Shown here piece by piece: positions 1,456 to 31,422 of a DNA stretch of 64,000 nt. Origin of the DNA: Prevotella sp. (lineage in GTDB: Bacteria > Bacteroidota > Bacteroidia > Bacteroidales > Bacteroidaceae). The notes under the pieces are model-generated. The model ran no database searches. It was not told the DNA's origin and saw only the letters and a list, made by a program, of their open reading frames with translations. Position numbers and translations under genes: made by a program. The stretch's first letter is position 1; every line of letters begins with the position of its first letter. The DNA lies in contig JAFZIZ010000015.1 of NCBI GenBank assembly GCA_017554145.1, forward strand, positions 310,001 through 374,000. Reading direction: 5' to 3'.

Positions 1456-2211
1456 GATGATGCTACGGATGACGAACCAGACATGCAGGAAGAAGGTTTG
1501 TATCCCACCATAATGATGGCACATCACTTGATAGCGTTCTTTCAGTGATGCCCAATGATTCTGTGTCGTGTTACCACCTTCCATGAAGTCGGCAAGGACA
1601 GCATAGGTGTTGACTATAGGCAGTTCCATTTGCTCTGCTTGTTTCATCACACGGATACACCAGTCGACATCTGCCGAATGGCGATATTGTAGATCGTATT
1701 CCTGTCCTTTAGCGATATCCGTACGTACATAGAAAGCCTGATGACAGACAAGCATACCTTGACGGAACGATTTCCAGTTAAGTTGTTGGGGTGGGCGTAG
1801 GCGGCGCAAATGAAGGAACTTGCCATTTTCATCTGTGACAGCTGTATCGCCGTACATGATGGCTGGCAGTTGGCTTTCAGCAGTTGGCTTTTGACTTTTG
1901 ACAATTATTTCAAGGGTGTTGTCGGCATGAAGGATGTCTCCTGCATTCAGAAACACCAGATAGTCACCCGTCGCTTTGCGTAGTCCTTTATTCATCGCGT
2001 CATATAGTCCTTTGTCAGGTTCCGACTGGATGACGACTTCATAGGAACATTGCGCTTGGTAGGTCTTAGCAATGGCAATAGTATCGTCTTTTGAAGCACC
2101 GTCGATGATGAGGTGCTCAATTTGCTGCCACGTCTGTTCCTTCACACTGTTGAGGGTGCGTTGCAATACGCTGGCAGCGTTATAGGTGACGGTGATGATG
2201 GTAATCTTCAT
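1450..2211 (-). CDS. Glycosyltransferase family 2
   Basis: A 253-residue inverting GT-A glycosyltransferase. It begins MKITIITVTYN, the typical GT2 nucleotide-binding strand, followed by IIDGASKDDT and the VFLNAGD segment that takes the place of the DxD metal motif. A longer reading from 2307 would place 32 unrelated residues before this conserved start, so ATG at 2211 was chosen. It overlaps the end of the upstream GT4 gene by 32 bp in another frame, which suggests coupled translation. The donor and acceptor sugars are unknown; the pair probably acts in surface polysaccharide or LPS assembly. Residues about 103-117 are encoded by heptamer repeats (see separate entry). Confidence 0.9.
   Translation of the reverse strand: MKITIITVTYNAASVLQRTLNSVKEQTWQQIEHLIIDGASKDDTIAIAKTYQAQCSYEVVIQSEPDKGLYDAMNKGLRKATGDYLVFLNAGDILHADNTLEIIVKSQKPTAESQLPAIMYGDTAVTDENGKFLHLRRLRPPQQLNWKSFRQGMLVCHQAFYVRTDIAKGQEYDLQYRHSADVDWCIRVMKQAEQMELPIVNTYAVLADFMEGGNTTQNHWASLKERYQVMCHHYGGIQTFFLHVWFVIRSIIK
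1863..1904. repeat. 7-bp tandem repeats inside the GT2 gene
   Basis: Six consecutive 7-bp units (CTGGCAG, TTGGCTT, TCAGCAG, TTGGCTT, TTGACTT, TTGACAA) lie in frame and encode a Ser/Gln/Lys/Pro-rich segment. The unit resembles those in murA and in the lutC-lutB gap. Confidence 0.7.
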
Positions 2212-3448
2212 AAACTTCCATATATCGTTTGGCAACACTCTGTTGAGAGTAGTTGCGAGCCACTTTCTGCAAACATGCTTTCTTGATTTCCTCCTTATTG
2301 GATTCATTCAGAGTCCATCGGATGCCTCTTGCCAAATCGGTGGCATCCCGATAGTCAGCCACATAGCCGTTCTGCTGATGGTCAATCTCCTCAGGGATTC
2401 CTCCGATGTGGAAGCCCACACTGGGGATACCGCAAGCCATCGCCTCCATGATGGTGTTAGGAAGATTCTCGGAGAGCGAGGGGAGTACAAACACATCAGC
2501 GGCATTATAGACCTTCACGATCTGGTGCTCATCGTTAATATAACCCAAGGCATGTGTTTGGAAAGGCAGTTTACCCATCAGTTCCTCGGCATGTCCCCCT
2601 AAGATGGCAACGGAAGTGTCGTTCGCCATATCAGGATATTGTTCCATCAAGAGGTTGCAGGCATCTATCAGATACTGCATGCCTTTATTGGGATTCGTCA
2701 CCCGTTGCGACACAAACAGGATGATATGCCCTTCTGAGGGTAATCCTAAATCTTTACGAGCCTTCTGTTTGTCAATAGGGCAGTAGATATGCGTGTCGAT
2801 AGGGTTGGGAATATTGGTGATATGCTGGTCTTTCAATAGTGCACTCTTCTTTGCTTCCTCAGCAAGCCATTGGCTGCAAGCCACGAAGGAGATATGTTGT
2901 CTTTCCAGCATCTTCTGTTTTTTACGCCAGATGTTGGCGGCTAGGTCGTTCGAAGAACCGCCTCTGGGCAACAGACGGCATTGACAGCATTGCGTCTCGA
3001 ACTGTCGGCAGTCCATTGTCAGATGACAGATAGCCGTAGCGGGCCAGATGTCATGCATTGTCCATACCACCCGTTTACCACTTTCCAATATCTTTCGGAT
3101 ATCCTTAAGCGACAGCATCCCTTGGTTGATCCAATGAAGATGGATGATGTCTGCCTCTTGAAACTCACGCAGCTGAGTGATATCCGTTCCCGTGTTGGCA
3201 ATATCTATCTCAAAGAGATGCGTGCGCTGCAGATGAAGGCTTAACCAGATGCGGAAACGCTCCCAAAGGAAGTTCCAGTGCAGTTTCCAACTCTTTGGTA
3301 GGGTGGAAACTGTGATATGGTCTGTCTCCTTGTCACGAACCAGCATCTTCGCCTTGACACCGTTGTTGTTCAGTGCCTCCATCAGTCGGTTGGCAGCAAC
3401 AGCGGCACCACCTGTCCGTTCACTGGTATTGACAATCAGTACTCTCAT
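2180..3448 (-). CDS. Glycosyltransferase family 4
   Basis: A 422-residue GT-B retaining glycosyltransferase. The N-terminus MRVLIVNTSERTGGAA is the Rossmann strand with Gly-rich loop; the C-terminal half has SLSENLPNTIMEAMACG, the conserved E-x7-E type donor-binding region of GT4. A reading starting 12 codons earlier is ruled out because ATG at 3448 sits 5 nt below a well-formed promoter. First gene of a two-gene unit with the overlapping GT2. The product sugar is not identifiable from sequence. The C-terminus is His-rich (EDYHHHRHL), in the overlap zone. Confidence 0.9.
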   Translation of the reverse strand: MRVLIVNTSERTGGAAVAANRLMEALNNNGVKAKMLVRDKETDHITVSTLPKSWKLHWNFLWERFRIWLSLHLQRTHLFEIDIANTGTDITQLREFQEADIIHLHWINQGMLSLKDIRKILESGKRVVWTMHDIWPATAICHLTMDCRQFETQCCQCRLLPRGGSSNDLAANIWRKKQKMLERQHISFVACSQWLAEEAKKSALLKDQHITNIPNPIDTHIYCPIDKQKARKDLGLPSEGHIILFVSQRVTNPNKGMQYLIDACNLLMEQYPDMANDTSVAILGGHAEELMGKLPFQTHALGYINDEHQIVKVYNAADVFVLPSLSENLPNTIMEAMACGIPSVGFHIGGIPEEIDHQQNGYVADYRDATDLARGIRWTLNESNKEEIKKACLQKVARNYSQQSVAKRYMEVYEDYHHHRHL

Positions 3449-3485: not shown

Positions 3486-3595
3486 TAAAATGAATAAAAT
3501 CATCATTTAAGCGAACATTTTATGCTGTTTGCGGACACAATCCGTTGATTTAGGTCAAGAATGATGGATTTTTACAAACTTTATACATTAAATCC

Positions 3596-3626
3596 ATTGC
3601 AGATTCAAAAAATCGTCGTACCTTTG
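3596..3626 (+). promoter_or_regulatory. Promoter of the candidate structured RNA
   Basis: ATTG (3596-3599), 19-nt spacer, TACCTTTG (3619-3626). Predicted start is near 3631. No coding region of any size follows on this strand before the terminator at 3898. Confidence 0.65.
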
Positions 3627-3630
3627 CAAT

Positions 3631-3931
3631 GTCAAAAGACAAGAGGTCTTAAATTGACATTCGGTTAATAGATTGTTTTAGGTTAGTAGTAATATTTATA
3701 GTTTTAGGTTTTTAGTTATTGGTATTAAGAAAGTTTTAAATGTGTTAGGATAACAGTGGTCGCCGTGAGGCTCCCATAACTTTCTTTTTAAAACGAAAAG
3801 GTTAGTATTAGTTAAATATTCCTATCGAAAGATAGGCTTCCTGCTGGATAGCAGGATTCATTAGAAAAGGATTTTTAGTTAAACATAGGCTTTGGATGTC
3901 GCTGCTCGTTGAGAGTGGCGGCATTTTTTTT
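3631..3931 (+). ncRNA. Candidate structured non-coding RNA of about 300 nt
   Basis: This 497-bp gap between two minus-strand genes holds a plus-strand unit with its own promoter and terminator and no open frame of note. Visible hairpins: a 5' stem (GTCAA plus AAGAC at 3631-3640 with GTCTT at 3646-3650 and TTGAC at 3654-3658); a 9-bp stem 3727-3735 with 3778-3786 enclosing a GTGA-tetraloop hairpin at 3756-3777; CCTATC-GAAA-GATAGG at 3821-3836; CCTGCT-GGAT-AGCAGG at 3840-3855; then the terminator. By eye it lacks the hallmarks of RNase P RNA, SRP RNA, tmRNA and 6S RNA. The linkers are A/T-rich with TTTTAGGTT-like motifs (3676-3712). Function unknown. Confidence 0.55.
3898..3931 (+). terminator. 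Terminator of the candidate RNA
   Basis: A 10-bp stem (3898-3907 with 3913-3922, some G-U pairs), loop GTTGA, then A and eight T (3924-3931). The T tract is on the plus strand only, so it does not serve the minus-strand bglX gene. Confidence 0.85.
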
Positions 3932-3970
3932 ATTACATCTCGAAGTCAGATGTCTGTTTCGAGATGTAAT
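3932..3970. repeat. Perfect 13-bp inverted repeat across the bglX stop codon
   Basis: ATTACATCTCGAA at 3932-3944 and its exact complement at 3958-3970, separated by 13 bp that hold the bglX stop codon. There is no T tract on the minus strand, so it is not a classical terminator for bglX. Confidence 0.8.
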
Positions 3971-6153
3971 GGGAGGTCCTTTGATGAGCCACCAACTTGT
4001 ATGATGGCTTTTCCTGGTTCCAACATCCACGTCTGCGCTGCTTCGTCCCAATGACAGAGATCGTTACGACGTATTGGAATGGTGATTTCCTTACGTTCAC
4101 CAGCCTTCAAAGCTACCCGCTTAAAGCCTTTAAGTTCCTTTACTGGGCGTTCGATGTTAGACAGAGGGCGTGATACATAGACTTGTGTCACTTCCTCAGC
4201 ATCGATAGAAGAGGTGTTGGTGAGCATAAAGTGCACATCCAGTCCTTCTGCCGTAGGGGTGATCTTGATGTCACTGTACTGGAAGTTCGCATAGGAAAGA
4301 CCATAACCGAAAGGATAGGCTACAGGAACATTTTTGCAATCGTACCATCTGTAGCCCACCATGTCTTCTTCCGCATAGTTGGCAATGAGTTGTTGACGAC
4401 GGTCGTTGCTCTGATTATGAACTAACCCCACGAAGATATCACCCTGATTGTTGTTTTCAACGTGTTGCGGATAACTACCTGTAGCGTATGCAGGAACGTC
4501 CTCCAAACGTTTTGTCCAGGTCATAGGCAGTTTGCCTGACGGGGAAATCTTACCAGTAAGTACTTCGGCAAGCGCCTGTCCACCCATAGAACCATTAAAC
4601 CATGAAACCATAAGTGCACCCGATACTTCATCGACGGTACTGATATCGACGGGTCCACCCGATACGATAACAGTAATCAACTGCCTGTTCGCTTTGGCGA
4701 GGGCAATGGCCAGTTCATCCTGTCCAGAGGGTAGGGTGATGCTCTTGCGGTCGGACCCCTCAGTCTCCACCTCACGATTGTCGCCTGCAAAGTAGATGAC
4801 GAGGTCGGCTTTTTTAGCTGCTTTTACAGCTTGTGCCATCAGTTGAGCATCAGCCTTCTGCTGTGGACTAAGGCGCTTATTGCGGCTGTCGCGATCGAAA
4901 CTCTTATATCCTGGTTCATAGATCAGCTTGACACTGTTGCCAACGAATGCCTGCAAACCTTCAAGCGGTGTGATTTCCTGACGAGTCTTCACGCCAGCAC
5001 CGACACCGCCCAATGCCATCTTGGTAACGGCATTCTCACCGATTACGGCGATGCTCTTGATACGTTTGGTGTCGATAGGAAGCAAATTTTCGTTCTTCAG
5101 TAATACGATAGAGCGGCGAGCAACCTCCAAGGCTGTGGTCATCTCCTCGGGATTACCTACAGGCAGACGACTGGCATCCTCCTTGGCAATGGGCTTGACG
5201 GTGAATCTGACACGCAGAATTTCACGCACTCGCTGGTCGATCACTGCTTCACTCACCTTACCAACCTTCACGGAATCAATCAATGCCTGCCCCATAAACC
5301 GACTACCAGGCATCTCGACATTCATACCTGATGTGACGGCATCGACAGTAGAATGAACACCGCCCCAGTCACTAATCACCATACCAGGAAAGCCCCATTG
5401 CTTACGTAATACGGTGTTCAGCAAATATTCATTCTCAGAACACCAACGTCCGTTCACCTTGTTATAGGCCGCCATCACACCCCAGGCATCGGCCTCGCGT
5501 ACAGCCATCTCGAAGGGACGCAGGTATATCTCATGCATGGCACGGTCAGAGATATGCACATCCACAAAGCCACGATAGTCTTCCTGATTATTCAGCGCAT
5601 AGTGCTTTAGGCAGACTGCTGTCCCGTCGTCTTGTGCACCACGCGTATAGGCTACGGCAAGCGCACCACTAAGCATAGGGTCTTCGCTCAGATACTCATA
5701 GGTTCGTCCACCTGTTGGAATACGCTGGATGTTGATGGCTGGTCCCAGAATCATATCTTTTCCGCGCAAACGAGCTTCGCGACTCATACCACGTCCATAG
5801 GCGTAAGCCCATTCTGTACTCCACGTAGCAGCCAGTGCAGAACCAGTAGGGAAGAAGGTTGCCGAGTCTGTAGTCAGATGTGCCGAGTTCCATGAGTGGG
5901 GTTCCATCTCTTCACGGATGCCGAAAGGTCCGTCGGCATATTCGATGTCGGCAATGCCCAATCGCTCAATACCTGCTGACGAGAACATATTTTTACCATG
6001 AAGCATCGCCACCTTCTCTTCCAATGTCATGCCCTTGATGATGCTCTCAATCTGTGATTCGTTGTCGAGTAGGCGTGTCGGGTATTTCTGTGCCTGTATT
6101 GCTGTGGCTGCACCCAAGGCAACTATAGTGATAATCGTTCTGATTCCTGTCAT
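3946..6153 (-). CDS. bglX: Secreted beta-glucosidase, glycoside hydrolase family 3
   Basis: A 735-residue GH3 enzyme that removes terminal non-reducing beta-linked glucose or related sugars. A signal peptide ends near residue 22 (AIQAQ), so it acts in the periplasm or at the surface. The N-terminal barrel carries GMTLEEKVAMLHG (about 41-53), KHYALN (183-188) and the nucleophile Asp262 in VISDWGG. The second sandwich domain and a C-terminal fibronectin-III-like domain (from about 640) complete the BglX-type layout at the usual length. It lies 13 bp after the secreted protein 6167-8065 in the same direction, so both are probably one operon. The natural substrate is not deducible. Confidence 0.93.
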   Translation of the reverse strand: MTGIRTIITIVALGAATAIQAQKYPTRLLDNESQIESIIKGMTLEEKVAMLHGKNMFSSAGIERLGIADIEYADGPFGIREEMEPHSWNSAHLTTDSATFFPTGSALAATWSTEWAYAYGRGMSREARLRGKDMILGPAINIQRIPTGGRTYEYLSEDPMLSGALAVAYTRGAQDDGTAVCLKHYALNNQEDYRGFVDVHISDRAMHEIYLRPFEMAVREADAWGVMAAYNKVNGRWCSENEYLLNTVLRKQWGFPGMVISDWGGVHSTVDAVTSGMNVEMPGSRFMGQALIDSVKVGKVSEAVIDQRVREILRVRFTVKPIAKEDASRLPVGNPEEMTTALEVARRSIVLLKNENLLPIDTKRIKSIAVIGENAVTKMALGGVGAGVKTRQEITPLEGLQAFVGNSVKLIYEPGYKSFDRDSRNKRLSPQQKADAQLMAQAVKAAKKADLVIYFAGDNREVETEGSDRKSITLPSGQDELAIALAKANRQLITVIVSGGPVDISTVDEVSGALMVSWFNGSMGGQALAEVLTGKISPSGKLPMTWTKRLEDVPAYATGSYPQHVENNNQGDIFVGLVHNQSNDRRQQLIANYAEEDMVGYRWYDCKNVPVAYPFGYGLSYANFQYSDIKITPTAEGLDVHFMLTNTSSIDAEEVTQVYVSRPLSNIERPVKELKGFKRVALKAGERKEITIPIRRNDLCHWDEAAQTWMLEPGKAIIQVGGSSKDLPLHLETDI

Positions 6154-17500: not shown

Positions 17501-18084
17501 TGTAAGGCACCGCCATAGCCATAGATTTTTACATTACTGCTATTGGAGAAACCTGCTTTCTGAATGAGGTCGTTGCTGAGTTGGTAGATACCCGTCTCAG
17601 GAATACGTATCTTCACCCATGTTCCTTCTGCCAATACCGAATGGTCGGCATACCGCTTTCCGTCGGCAGACCTTTTGGCGAGATGTTTCTTGCTGATAGC
17701 CTTCGACTCGACCTTCAGCATGAAACTTACTAGTTTCTGGTATTTCTTATTGCGATAGACCAGTGGTACGAGTGAGATTTCCAACGATGCCTTCTTACGA
17801 GAGATACTGATCTGCTGTTGTACCTTCGGCAGTTTGGGCAACGGCTCCTTCGTGATGGCATAGTAACTCTGCACGTCATGATTGCTCATCGAGATAAACT
17901 CCGGATACTCGATACTGACGGTATAGGTGGAATCCGCATAGTTGTGGAAGAGGGGAATAGAGTAGGTGACTTGTGGTAATACCGAGTCAATCTTGACTTG
18001 CGGAGCAGTCAAGTTAAAGAACCGTTGCGCCTCCATGCATAAGCAGGAGAGCAACAGCAACAGACTCAGTATGTATTTCCTCAT
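14560..18084 (-). CDS. porU: Type IX secretion sortase PorU (gingipain-like C25 cysteine protease)
   Basis: An 1174-residue surface protease that removes the C-terminal signal of type IX cargo and attaches it to anionic LPS. The signal peptide ends near CMEAQ (about 20). The caspase-like C25 domain holds the catalytic His at about 679 in MNYSGHGAANAF and Cys at about 712 in WVTASCDIMPF. The C-terminal end (GVYLYRVRISSNGSG, then KAKKLIIIS) is itself T9SS-signal-like, as expected for PorU. The next gene on the strand is porV, 21 bp away. The start abuts the stop of the upstream FAH-family gene. Confidence 0.95.
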   Translation of the reverse strand: MRKYILSLLLLLSCLCMEAQRFFNLTAPQVKIDSVLPQVTYSIPLFHNYADSTYTVSIEYPEFISMSNHDVQSYYAITKEPLPKLPKVQQQISISRKKASLEISLVPLVYRNKKYQKLVSFMLKVESKAISKKHLAKRSADGKRYADHSVLAEGTWVKIRIPETGIYQLSNDLIQKAGFSNSSNVKIYGYGGALQPEKLTPDYLTNTDDLKEVPTCTVGSHRLFYAVGPVTWDENHRRIRNPYSSYGYYFLTESEGAPLSVSQEEFLASHHPSDDDYNTLYEVDNFAWYQGGRNLYDAEVLIANTHHDYTLRASGRSTKGSITVSVTANKATTVSVSVNDKSVGSLNISAPGKYDAMRTSTKTFAIDNLAASNKVRISHSNSDATLHLDYISLYSEQPMAAPDLSSGNFPVPEYVEAVANQDHHADEAVDMVIIIPTSRKLEKQAERIKAIHEAIDSSRIRIIPANELYNEFSSGTPDANAYRRYLKMLYDKATTENDMPRYLLLFGDGAWDNRMLSSAWKNETPDDFLLCYESENSSSSTDCYVTDDYFCLLDDNEGGNMLKTDKPDVAVGRFPVRTVEQASVMVDKIENYVNNQQAGAWQNTVCVMGDDGNGNQHMKDADDVAKQIEKLRPAMQVKRVMWDAYPRTTTATGNRYPDVTRLLRQQMASGTLVMNYSGHGAANAFSHEYVLTLQDFEETVSPRLPLWVTASCDIMPFDGQEDNIGEASIFNKNGGAIAFYGTTRTVYQSYNIVMNLAFTHHLFGSERIAIGEAVRRAKNELVNTGSDLSTNKLQYTLLGDPALLLAMPTVPIVIDAINQQELTSMTENLHIGAGETLTISGHIATQEGAIDSNFNGEMTATVRDAAEKVVCRQNDTSEAEFPYTYTDRTKVLYQGSDSVRQGRFSFSFTVPRDISYSDATGLINIYAVSNDKKQEASGYTDCVVFGGTGHEGGDHDGPSVFCYLNSSSFVDGGVVNPTPYFIAELADSSGINSTGNGIGHDLQLIIDGELARTYTLNDYFQYDFGSHTKGTVGFSIPELSEGNHRLQFRAWDVLNNSTTKELNFQVSKELSPEFFDVECTQNPATTTTGFRIIHDRVGSNMDIVLDIFDMAGHHLWQHTEHATPVDNSYTINWDLCVDGGRRLHTGVYLYRVRISSNGSGQTSKAKKLIIISNK

Positions 18085-22714: not shown

Positions 22715-22920
22715 TTTTACTTTTAATTTTACTACTAAAAAACAATTTCTTTCTTTTCTCTTATACACAAACAAACACCACGGCAGAGAGTCTAACGCTC
22801 TGCAGTAGTCTAACGTCTGTGCCTTTCGGCTGAATCGTGATTCACAAACCGCTATGCCCGGCCAAAGACATCGCTATTTACACACGGTTCACGGGGATTC
22901 TAAGTCTCTCCCCAGTAATC
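22715..22920 (-). promoter_or_regulatory. Structured mRNA leader of the L13-S9 operon
   Basis: About 206 nt between the predicted start and the rplM ATG. On the minus strand, visible elements are a hairpin GGGGA/TCCCC (22893-22913), a GCC-GAAA-GGC hairpin (22821-22830), a GCAGAG/CTCTGC hairpin (22783-22803) and a repeated CGTTAGACT. I recall that L13 leaders have been described in Bacteroidia; whether this one belongs there needs a covariance search. Likely an autoregulatory site for L13 or S9. Confidence 0.5.
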
Positions 22921-31346: not shown

Positions 31347-31349
31347 CCG

Positions 31350-31422
31350 TGATCCGTTTGGGGCTCGAACCCAAGACCCCAACATTAAAAGTGTTGTGCT
31401 CTACCAACTGAGCTAACGGATC
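31350..31422 (-). tRNA. tRNA-Lys (anticodon TTT)
   Basis: A complete 73-nt cloverleaf on the minus strand: acceptor GATCCGT/ACGGATC, D-arm with AGCTCAGTTGGTAGAGC, anticodon loop CTTTTAA, and T-arm GGGTTCGAGCCC. CCA is not encoded. It is transcribed toward the nhaC terminator. Confidence 0.97.

Follow-up and report, generated by a model that had tools for sequence, protein, structure and literature searches.

Prevotella and Segatella are prominent bacteria of the gut and the rumen, and to our knowledge their RNA regulators have been little studied. Elsewhere, E. coli FnrS is a small RNA (sRNA) controlled by FNR, and RNAs of the CsrB type are sponges that titrate proteins. The Crp/Fnr family of regulators also includes HcpR.

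The closest described systems are found in other Bacteroidota. The FopS sRNAs of Bacteroides thetaiotaomicron (Rfam family RF04319) are described as RNAs of 65–70 nt with an open 5′ end and a terminator, which block translation initiation of SusC-type transporters (PMC11697453). GibS (RF04182) is an intergenic RNA made from the PM2 promoter, mostly open in its 5′ part and then bearing hairpins and a terminator (PMC7366714). SnoA of B. thetaiotaomicron is a regulatory RNA tied to HcpR and lies antisense in the hcp promoter (PMC13370916). In Segatella copri, a review states that deletion of the sRNA SrcF alters colonisation and disturbs nutrient-uptake genes, including PULs (PMC11814227).

Here we describe an RNA gene in the window, by which we mean the whole 64,000-nt stretch of a Prevotella sp. 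genome that was analysed (coordinates are positions in it). An earlier note had taken this locus for an independent RNA gene equipped with a promoter and a terminator of its own, and the analysis supports that reading, with expression presumed. We consider it probable that the gene encodes a trans-acting regulatory sRNA of Prevotella, driven by a Crp/Fnr-type factor, ended by its terminator and pairing with mRNAs. The strongest new fact is a fixed FNR-type box upstream, which is common to several small transcripts.

The RNA gene and its anatomy

The plus strand carries ATTG at 3596–3599 and, after N19, the −7 element TACCTTTG at 3619–3626. This is a promoter of the Bacteroidota type, read from the sequence and found just as the earlier note gave it. 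A scan for E. coli sigma-70 promoters returned none (shuffles 1.8), the −33/−7 type of the Bacteroidota being outside the reach of that scan. The terminator scan returned exactly one terminator in the region, that of the window RNA, where shuffles average 0.2; its T8 at 3924–3931 is the strong terminator claimed earlier. The RNA between them would be about 305 nt long. The folding energy of 3626–3932 has a z of −3.38, equalled by none of 100 shuffles. On the strand of the RNA, no frame opened by ATG, GTG or TTG exceeds 7 codons, in keeping with the claim that no open reading frame explains the transcript. The features of the locus are as follows.

3525..3540, no strand: palindrome CTGTTTGCGGACACAA (consensus TTGTTTGCGCACACAA), a putative second regulator site, from the own-genome pattern search
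3545..3558, no strand: FNR/Crp-type box TTGATTTAGGTCAA, with its first nucleotide 74 nt ahead of the −7 element
3596..3626, plus strand: Bacteroidota-type promoter, from the sequence and kept in relatives
3627..3931, plus strand: small RNA gene, from promoter and terminator positions and conservation; probable start about 3627–3632, end at the T tract
3628..3661, plus strand: 5′ hairpin AATGTC...GACATT, a variable insertion missing in most of the 23 aligned relatives
3663..3720, plus strand: cytosine-free core, nearly invariant and without consensus pairing, a putative contact site
3727..3786, plus strand: 9-bp outer stem (AAGAAAGTT with AACTTTCTT) enclosing the GUGA hairpin, invariant in the four closest sequences, without covariation
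3756..3777, plus strand: GUGA-loop hairpin, covarying across the genus
3821..3836, plus strand: hairpin CCTATC-GAAA-GATAGG, covarying, in 4 of 23 aligned genomes
3839..3856, plus strand: hairpin TCCTGCT-GGAT-AGCAGGA, covarying, in 4 of 23 aligned genomes
3865..3889, plus strand: second conserved stretch AAAAGGATTTTTAGTTAAACATAGG, without consensus pairing
3894..3931, plus strand: intrinsic terminator with the conserved top GCUCG..GAGAGU; stem 3894–3926 of 14 pairs, T8 at 3924–3931

The secondary structures pointed out earlier were all recovered: the hairpins CCTATC-GAAA-GATAGG and TCCTGCT-GGAT-AGCAGGA (one pair longer than noted before) at 3821–3836 and 3839–3856, and the 9-bp stem formed by 3727–3735 and 3778–3786 around the GTGA hairpin. 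As to the earlier coordinates, the RNA unit is real, but the conserved unit starts further upstream, with the FNR-type box.

The RNA lies between two minus-strand genes whose functions were read from their translations, a glycosyltransferase gene on the left, which has an in-frame ATG at 3448, and on the right a gene for a glycoside hydrolase (3946–6153). A structured RNA with a terminator could also be a cis-acting 5′ leader or riboswitch, and the next gene downstream is indeed on the same strand in 46 of 98 loci. It is on the opposite strand, however, in the window and in 52 of the 98, so that a leader role cannot be general; we regard this explanation as very improbable.

Conservation in related Prevotella, which the earlier note had named as a check, is far above chance in both BLAST-type and profile searches. 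The BLAST-type search matched 33 of 60 genomes, comprising 33 of the 36 from the window's genus (own genome included) and none of the 24 from other genera; a few of the matched genomes, such as G015 and G031, match in the promoter part only. R1, a profile of the 5′ half of the RNA and the GUGA hairpin, matched 135 of 150 genomes of the genus (completeness at least 80%) and left 15 without a match. In a sample of the family it matched 14 of 201 genomes, all 14 from the same genus (1 of 27 genera), and in a sample of the order 1 of 197, the own genome; the seven base pairs of R1 are misplaced by one column, so that R1 serves as a profile of sequence, and it could miss divergent relatives in other genera. 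Absence of the RNA outside the genus is less certain than these counts suggest. Among the matches listed for a 25–26-nt core pattern are Prevotella bivia, P. denticola, P. oulorum, P. corporis and P. brunnea, and further Segatella copri, S. baroniae, Hallella mizrahii, H. multisaccharivorax and Hoylesella marshii.

Synteny is partial. The same glycosyltransferase gene accompanies at least 87 of 141 RNA loci, ispF at least 47 and either of them at least 100, these counts being lower bounds from fetched stretches of unequal length. In S. copri iA622 the RNA sits between ispF and the same glycosyltransferase gene as in the window. An open reading frame of at least 110 codons overlaps the RNA by more than 60 nt in 2 of 101 loci.

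One locus with a tRNA gene (L031, 1501–1546) holds a 46-nt, near-identical copy of the core with no promoter match upstream. Another (L032, about 1486–1546, minus strand) has a short unit of promoter, core and terminator with GTTTTAGGTTTTTAGTTATTGGTA in common with the window RNA, and looks like another short sRNA gene. Three IMG/VR contigs (L306, L307 and L308) contain the core pattern.

The commoner form among 23 aligned sequences is about 190–200 nt long, and full-length relatives range from 189 to 322 nt. From its 5′ end the commoner form runs through the start TCGTCAAAAGG, the core GGTTAATAGATTGTTTAGGTTAGTAGTAATAGATTTAGGTTTTTAGTTATT and a spacer to a hairpin whose loop is of the GUGA type, and this is followed by AAAAGGATTTTTAGTTAAACATAGGC and the terminator topped GCUCG..GAGAGU. 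To this the window RNA and its nearest relatives add a 5′ hairpin, a longer core and the outer stem around the GUGA hairpin. The earlier note had put its emphasis on the stems; they are present, but the 5′ hairpin, the outer stem and the two later hairpins are additions that only some of the relatives have, and the core is the cytosine-free stretch. Conservation is highest in about 51 nt of that stretch and in AUUUUUAGUUAAACAUA ahead of the terminator, the hairpins being less conserved. Of 142 loci, 139 have a core free of cytosine, and the consensus fold leaves the core unpaired. When sequences are folded singly, its openness is 0.43 vs. 0.37 for the rest, a slight difference, although the core was above the rest in 21 of 23. 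Sequence conservation is thus concentrated in a part without consensus pairing, as expected for a site that contacts RNA or protein.

Covariation was found for part of the structure that had been proposed. It is genus-wide for the GUGA hairpin and the terminator and extends to the two later hairpins in four relatives, but the outer stem is invariant in the four closest sequences. In the GUGA hairpin (22 sequences) 96.8% of cells are paired, vs. 45–60% in slid versions, and double changes fill 25 cells vs. 10.4 in shuffles, with none of 500 shuffles reaching 25. Counted by pair, double changes affect 5 of 7, which is no excess over shuffles, 115 of 500 reaching this number. In a larger count, an inner-stem filter kept 82 of 131 hairpins, and the four outer pairs alone are free of that selection. 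The terminator (95 loci) is 95.6% paired, vs. 27–52% in slid versions, with all 14 of its pairs doubly changed in a count made on the alignment from which the structure was derived. The two later hairpins show both-side changes at 4 of 6 and 3 of 7 pairs in the four genomes, with one mismatch.

Comparison with described RNA families

No Rfam 15 family matched the region at its gathering score. The matches below threshold on the RNA strand were weak, e.g., PyrR at 24.5 bits vs. 54 and GibS at 20.9 vs. 115. A search of Rfam had been proposed earlier, and it returned no family at cut-off for this RNA or for the relatives examined. The housekeeping RNAs (6S, SRP, tmRNA and RNase P), which the earlier note had thought a poor fit, were rejected, with no Rfam or ARAGORN match at the locus. 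The window has ordinary elements elsewhere, an L13 ribosomal protein leader (22839–22913, minus strand) and a tRNA-Lys gene (31349–31422, minus strand).

The FopS RNAs are Bacteroidota sRNAs with paralogues, a cytosine-poor open 5′ stretch, an intrinsic terminator and the common −33/−7 promoter (PMC11697453), and the window RNA resembles them in all these respects. The own genome also holds a bona fide FopS sRNA (RF04319) on the minus strand (L052, 1359–1430; G000:C18 near 202.7 kb). It scores 76.4 bits against a gathering score of 56, which indicates that the Rfam test for FopS works. This FopS has the FNR-type box and its spacing in common with the window RNA. One could therefore think of the latter as a divergent member of the FopS/GibS family, as the weak GibS match and some local similarity between the core and the FopS consensus might also suggest. 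However, FopS gave no row for the window at E ≤ 10, nor for seven other loci at E ≤ 0.5. The local similarity does not reach significance: for the short form, 106 and 121 of 1000 shuffles did as well, and for the window form 525 and 611 of 1000. The RNA is 189–322 nt long here, as against 65–70 nt, its sequence is different, and it has an extra covarying hairpin and a second conserved 3′ stretch. The setting differs too, a protein with an RRM_1 domain (RbpB type) being present in only 4 of 60 genomes of the genus. Descent from the FopS/GibS family is in our judgment improbable. Membership of FopS proper was rejected on the 56-bit gathering score, on the length of about 65–70 nt and on similarity to the 5′ R1 seed.

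GibS membership was likewise rejected, since none of 40 genomes of the genus scored above the cut-off and a Bacteroides control did. The window RNA shares the layout of GibS but has a common-type −7 element in place of PM2. SnoA is similar in being a regulatory RNA of the Bacteroidota, linked in its case to HcpR. It differs in its place, since it is antisense in the hcp promoter, whereas the window RNA lies between glycosyltransferase and glycoside hydrolase genes.

The upstream box and the transcripts behind it

The promoter is preceded by a box of the form TTGAYNNRNRTCAA, which we take to be the form bound by FNR/Crp-type factors. In 130 of 140 loci the −7 element follows 73–75 nt after the start of the box, the 140 being those with enough upstream sequence in a set of 142 that required a −7 element within one mismatch, with loci lacking that element dropped uncounted. 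The spacing is 74 nt in 65 loci, 75 in 63 and 73 in 2. Several of the ten loci without a box at this spacing keep a decayed copy at the same place. As background, 1420 of 20000 random 260-nt windows of the fetched loci contained the box, real sites included. A palindromic TTGAT-N4-ATCAA-type box at a constant distance from the promoter is what one would look for in a Crp/Fnr-regulated sRNA, and it is present here. Its center near −80 suggests a class-I-like position. The window RNA would in this respect be like FnrS, which is driven from a box of the same type, but the present box is positioned near −80 and common to several small transcripts. We know of no sequence relation between the two RNAs. 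When three mismatches are allowed, 45 of 63 loci have the second palindrome, TTGTTTGCGCACACAA, which often sits directly ahead of the box and sometimes near the −33 region.

The box is not confined to this RNA. A strict pattern found five sites in the own genome and none in a reversed control, and all five have TAnnTTTG 74 or 75 nt downstream. They precede the window RNA, the FopS sRNA, a second RNA that carries GTTAGTAGTAA and TTTTTAGTTATTAATAGG, a transcript that holds a frame of 21 codons, and a gene for a lysine/alanine-rich protein. A relaxed box was also sought in 854 kb of own-genome sequence, made up of 40 stretches and the window. Of its 18 strand hits, 5 had the −7 element at 73–75, vs. 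4 at 87 other offsets together. All five relaxed boxes with this spacing precede predicted sRNAs or micropeptide transcripts, one of them the FopS sRNA, and further copies with the same spacing were found in several relatives.

Two of the transcripts behind such boxes contain hydrophobic frames. One (L284/L050; G000:C7 near 47914) has a frame of 21 codons and both palindromes upstream of its promoter. The other (L272; G000:C18:120001-140000), whose box is at minus-strand position 17620, has the related core TTAGGTTAGTAGTTAATAGATTTAAGG and a 31-codon frame followed by a terminator, and is absent from the strict-box list. These frames raise the question of whether the window RNA might itself be the mRNA of a very small protein; its own longest frame stops at 7 codons, and we find the idea hardly credible.

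Which protein would read the box? A scan of ten genomes for Crp-type HTH domains found the helix TTSNAIRTL (TTGNAIRTL in one) in five of them. A group with IQKFSLLR or a near form was present in six. A third group, with an ESRLNVSR-like helix, was above the cut-off in nine, and the tenth genome has a protein below the cut-off with HESRLNISKML. Judged by distribution only, the last group is the best candidate activator. The pattern ExxSR, which is that of the corresponding helix in E. coli FNR, was in none of the Crp/Fnr helices seen in the ten genomes.

From these observations we tentatively propose, at somewhat short of even odds, that one Crp/Fnr-type regulator acting through the box near −80 drives a battery of small transcripts. 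This battery would include the genus-wide RNA, its paralogues, FopS and at least two hydrophobic micropeptides, and would replace the RbpB-FopS circuit of Bacteroides, mostly without an RRM protein.

Mode of action and significance

The expression of the window RNA, its activator, its pairing with mRNAs and the targets are what we infer in the following. A putative activator of the Crp/Fnr family would bind TTGATTTAGGTCAA near −80 and drive the promoter, which is of the Bacteroidota housekeeping type. Transcription would stop at the intrinsic terminator. The cytosine-free core and the AUUUUUAGUUAAACAUAGG stretch may be the contact sites. By analogy to FopS in Bacteroides, the core would most likely pair with A/C-rich translation initiation regions of mRNAs that lack a Shine-Dalgarno sequence. 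The GUGA hairpin and the terminator would stabilise the RNA. It is the reported action of FopS on SusC-type initiation that favors base pairing for a cytosine-free core.

Target prediction gave no signal for this pairing. The initiation regions used numbered 618 and belong to ORFs of 120 aa or more that a simple script had called in the 40 stretches and the window. With them the core had a mean duplex energy of −16.37, vs. −16.56 (sd 0.52) for 18 shuffled seeds, and it bound internal gene regions more strongly (−17.39). The 3′ motif gave −8.62 vs. −8.16 (sd 0.41) for shuffles at these regions, yet −10.04 at internal regions. The 5′ end of the own FopS gave −11.35 vs. −10.28 (sd 0.42), yet −11.57 at internal regions. 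A test of SusC target rank rested on one recognised SusC gene.

The null prediction speaks for another reading, a protein sponge. On this account, which is by analogy, repeated UUAG-type motifs in the cytosine-free stretches would make the RNA a decoy that titrates an RNA-binding protein. TTTTTAGTT occurs twice (in 0 of 500 shuffles), GTTAGTA twice (1 of 500) and TTAG nine times (16 of 500), the motifs having been picked after sight of the sequence, and the invariant stretch exceeds the usual length of a seed. Against this, no RRM_1 protein of the RbpB type was found in the own genome (83.5% complete). Because of this, and of the rarity of such proteins in the genus, RbpB is unlikely to be a general partner of the RNA. 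We hold the decoy to be unlikely, though clearly less so than membership of the FopS/GibS family, and prefer base pairing with mRNAs.

A trans-acting sRNA might already have a name. The window RNA may be SrcF of S. copri (El Mouali et al., 2024) or its orthologue, which would be compatible with a trans-acting role. The S. copri iA622 locus described above favors this, as do the reported effects of SrcF deletion. On the other hand, S. copri may have many sRNAs, and the likeness is that SrcF is an sRNA of a species which carries this RNA. We consider the identity possible, with the odds somewhat against it. No description of the window RNA was noticed in the literature searched, a scope outside which the S. 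copri SrcF paper falls. In sum, the RNA belongs to a family of bacterial regulatory sRNAs that has no Rfam 15 entry and has possibly been described under another name in one species.

If the window RNA is SrcF, the present analysis supplies the family, the structure and the likely control of SrcF. A testable promoter code marks the family together with other predicted sRNA and micropeptide genes. If one Crp/Fnr-type factor reads the box, these genes would make up a whole regulon of small transcripts. The sharing of one box by several sRNA genes points to a shared control circuit, based on RNA, in Prevotella.
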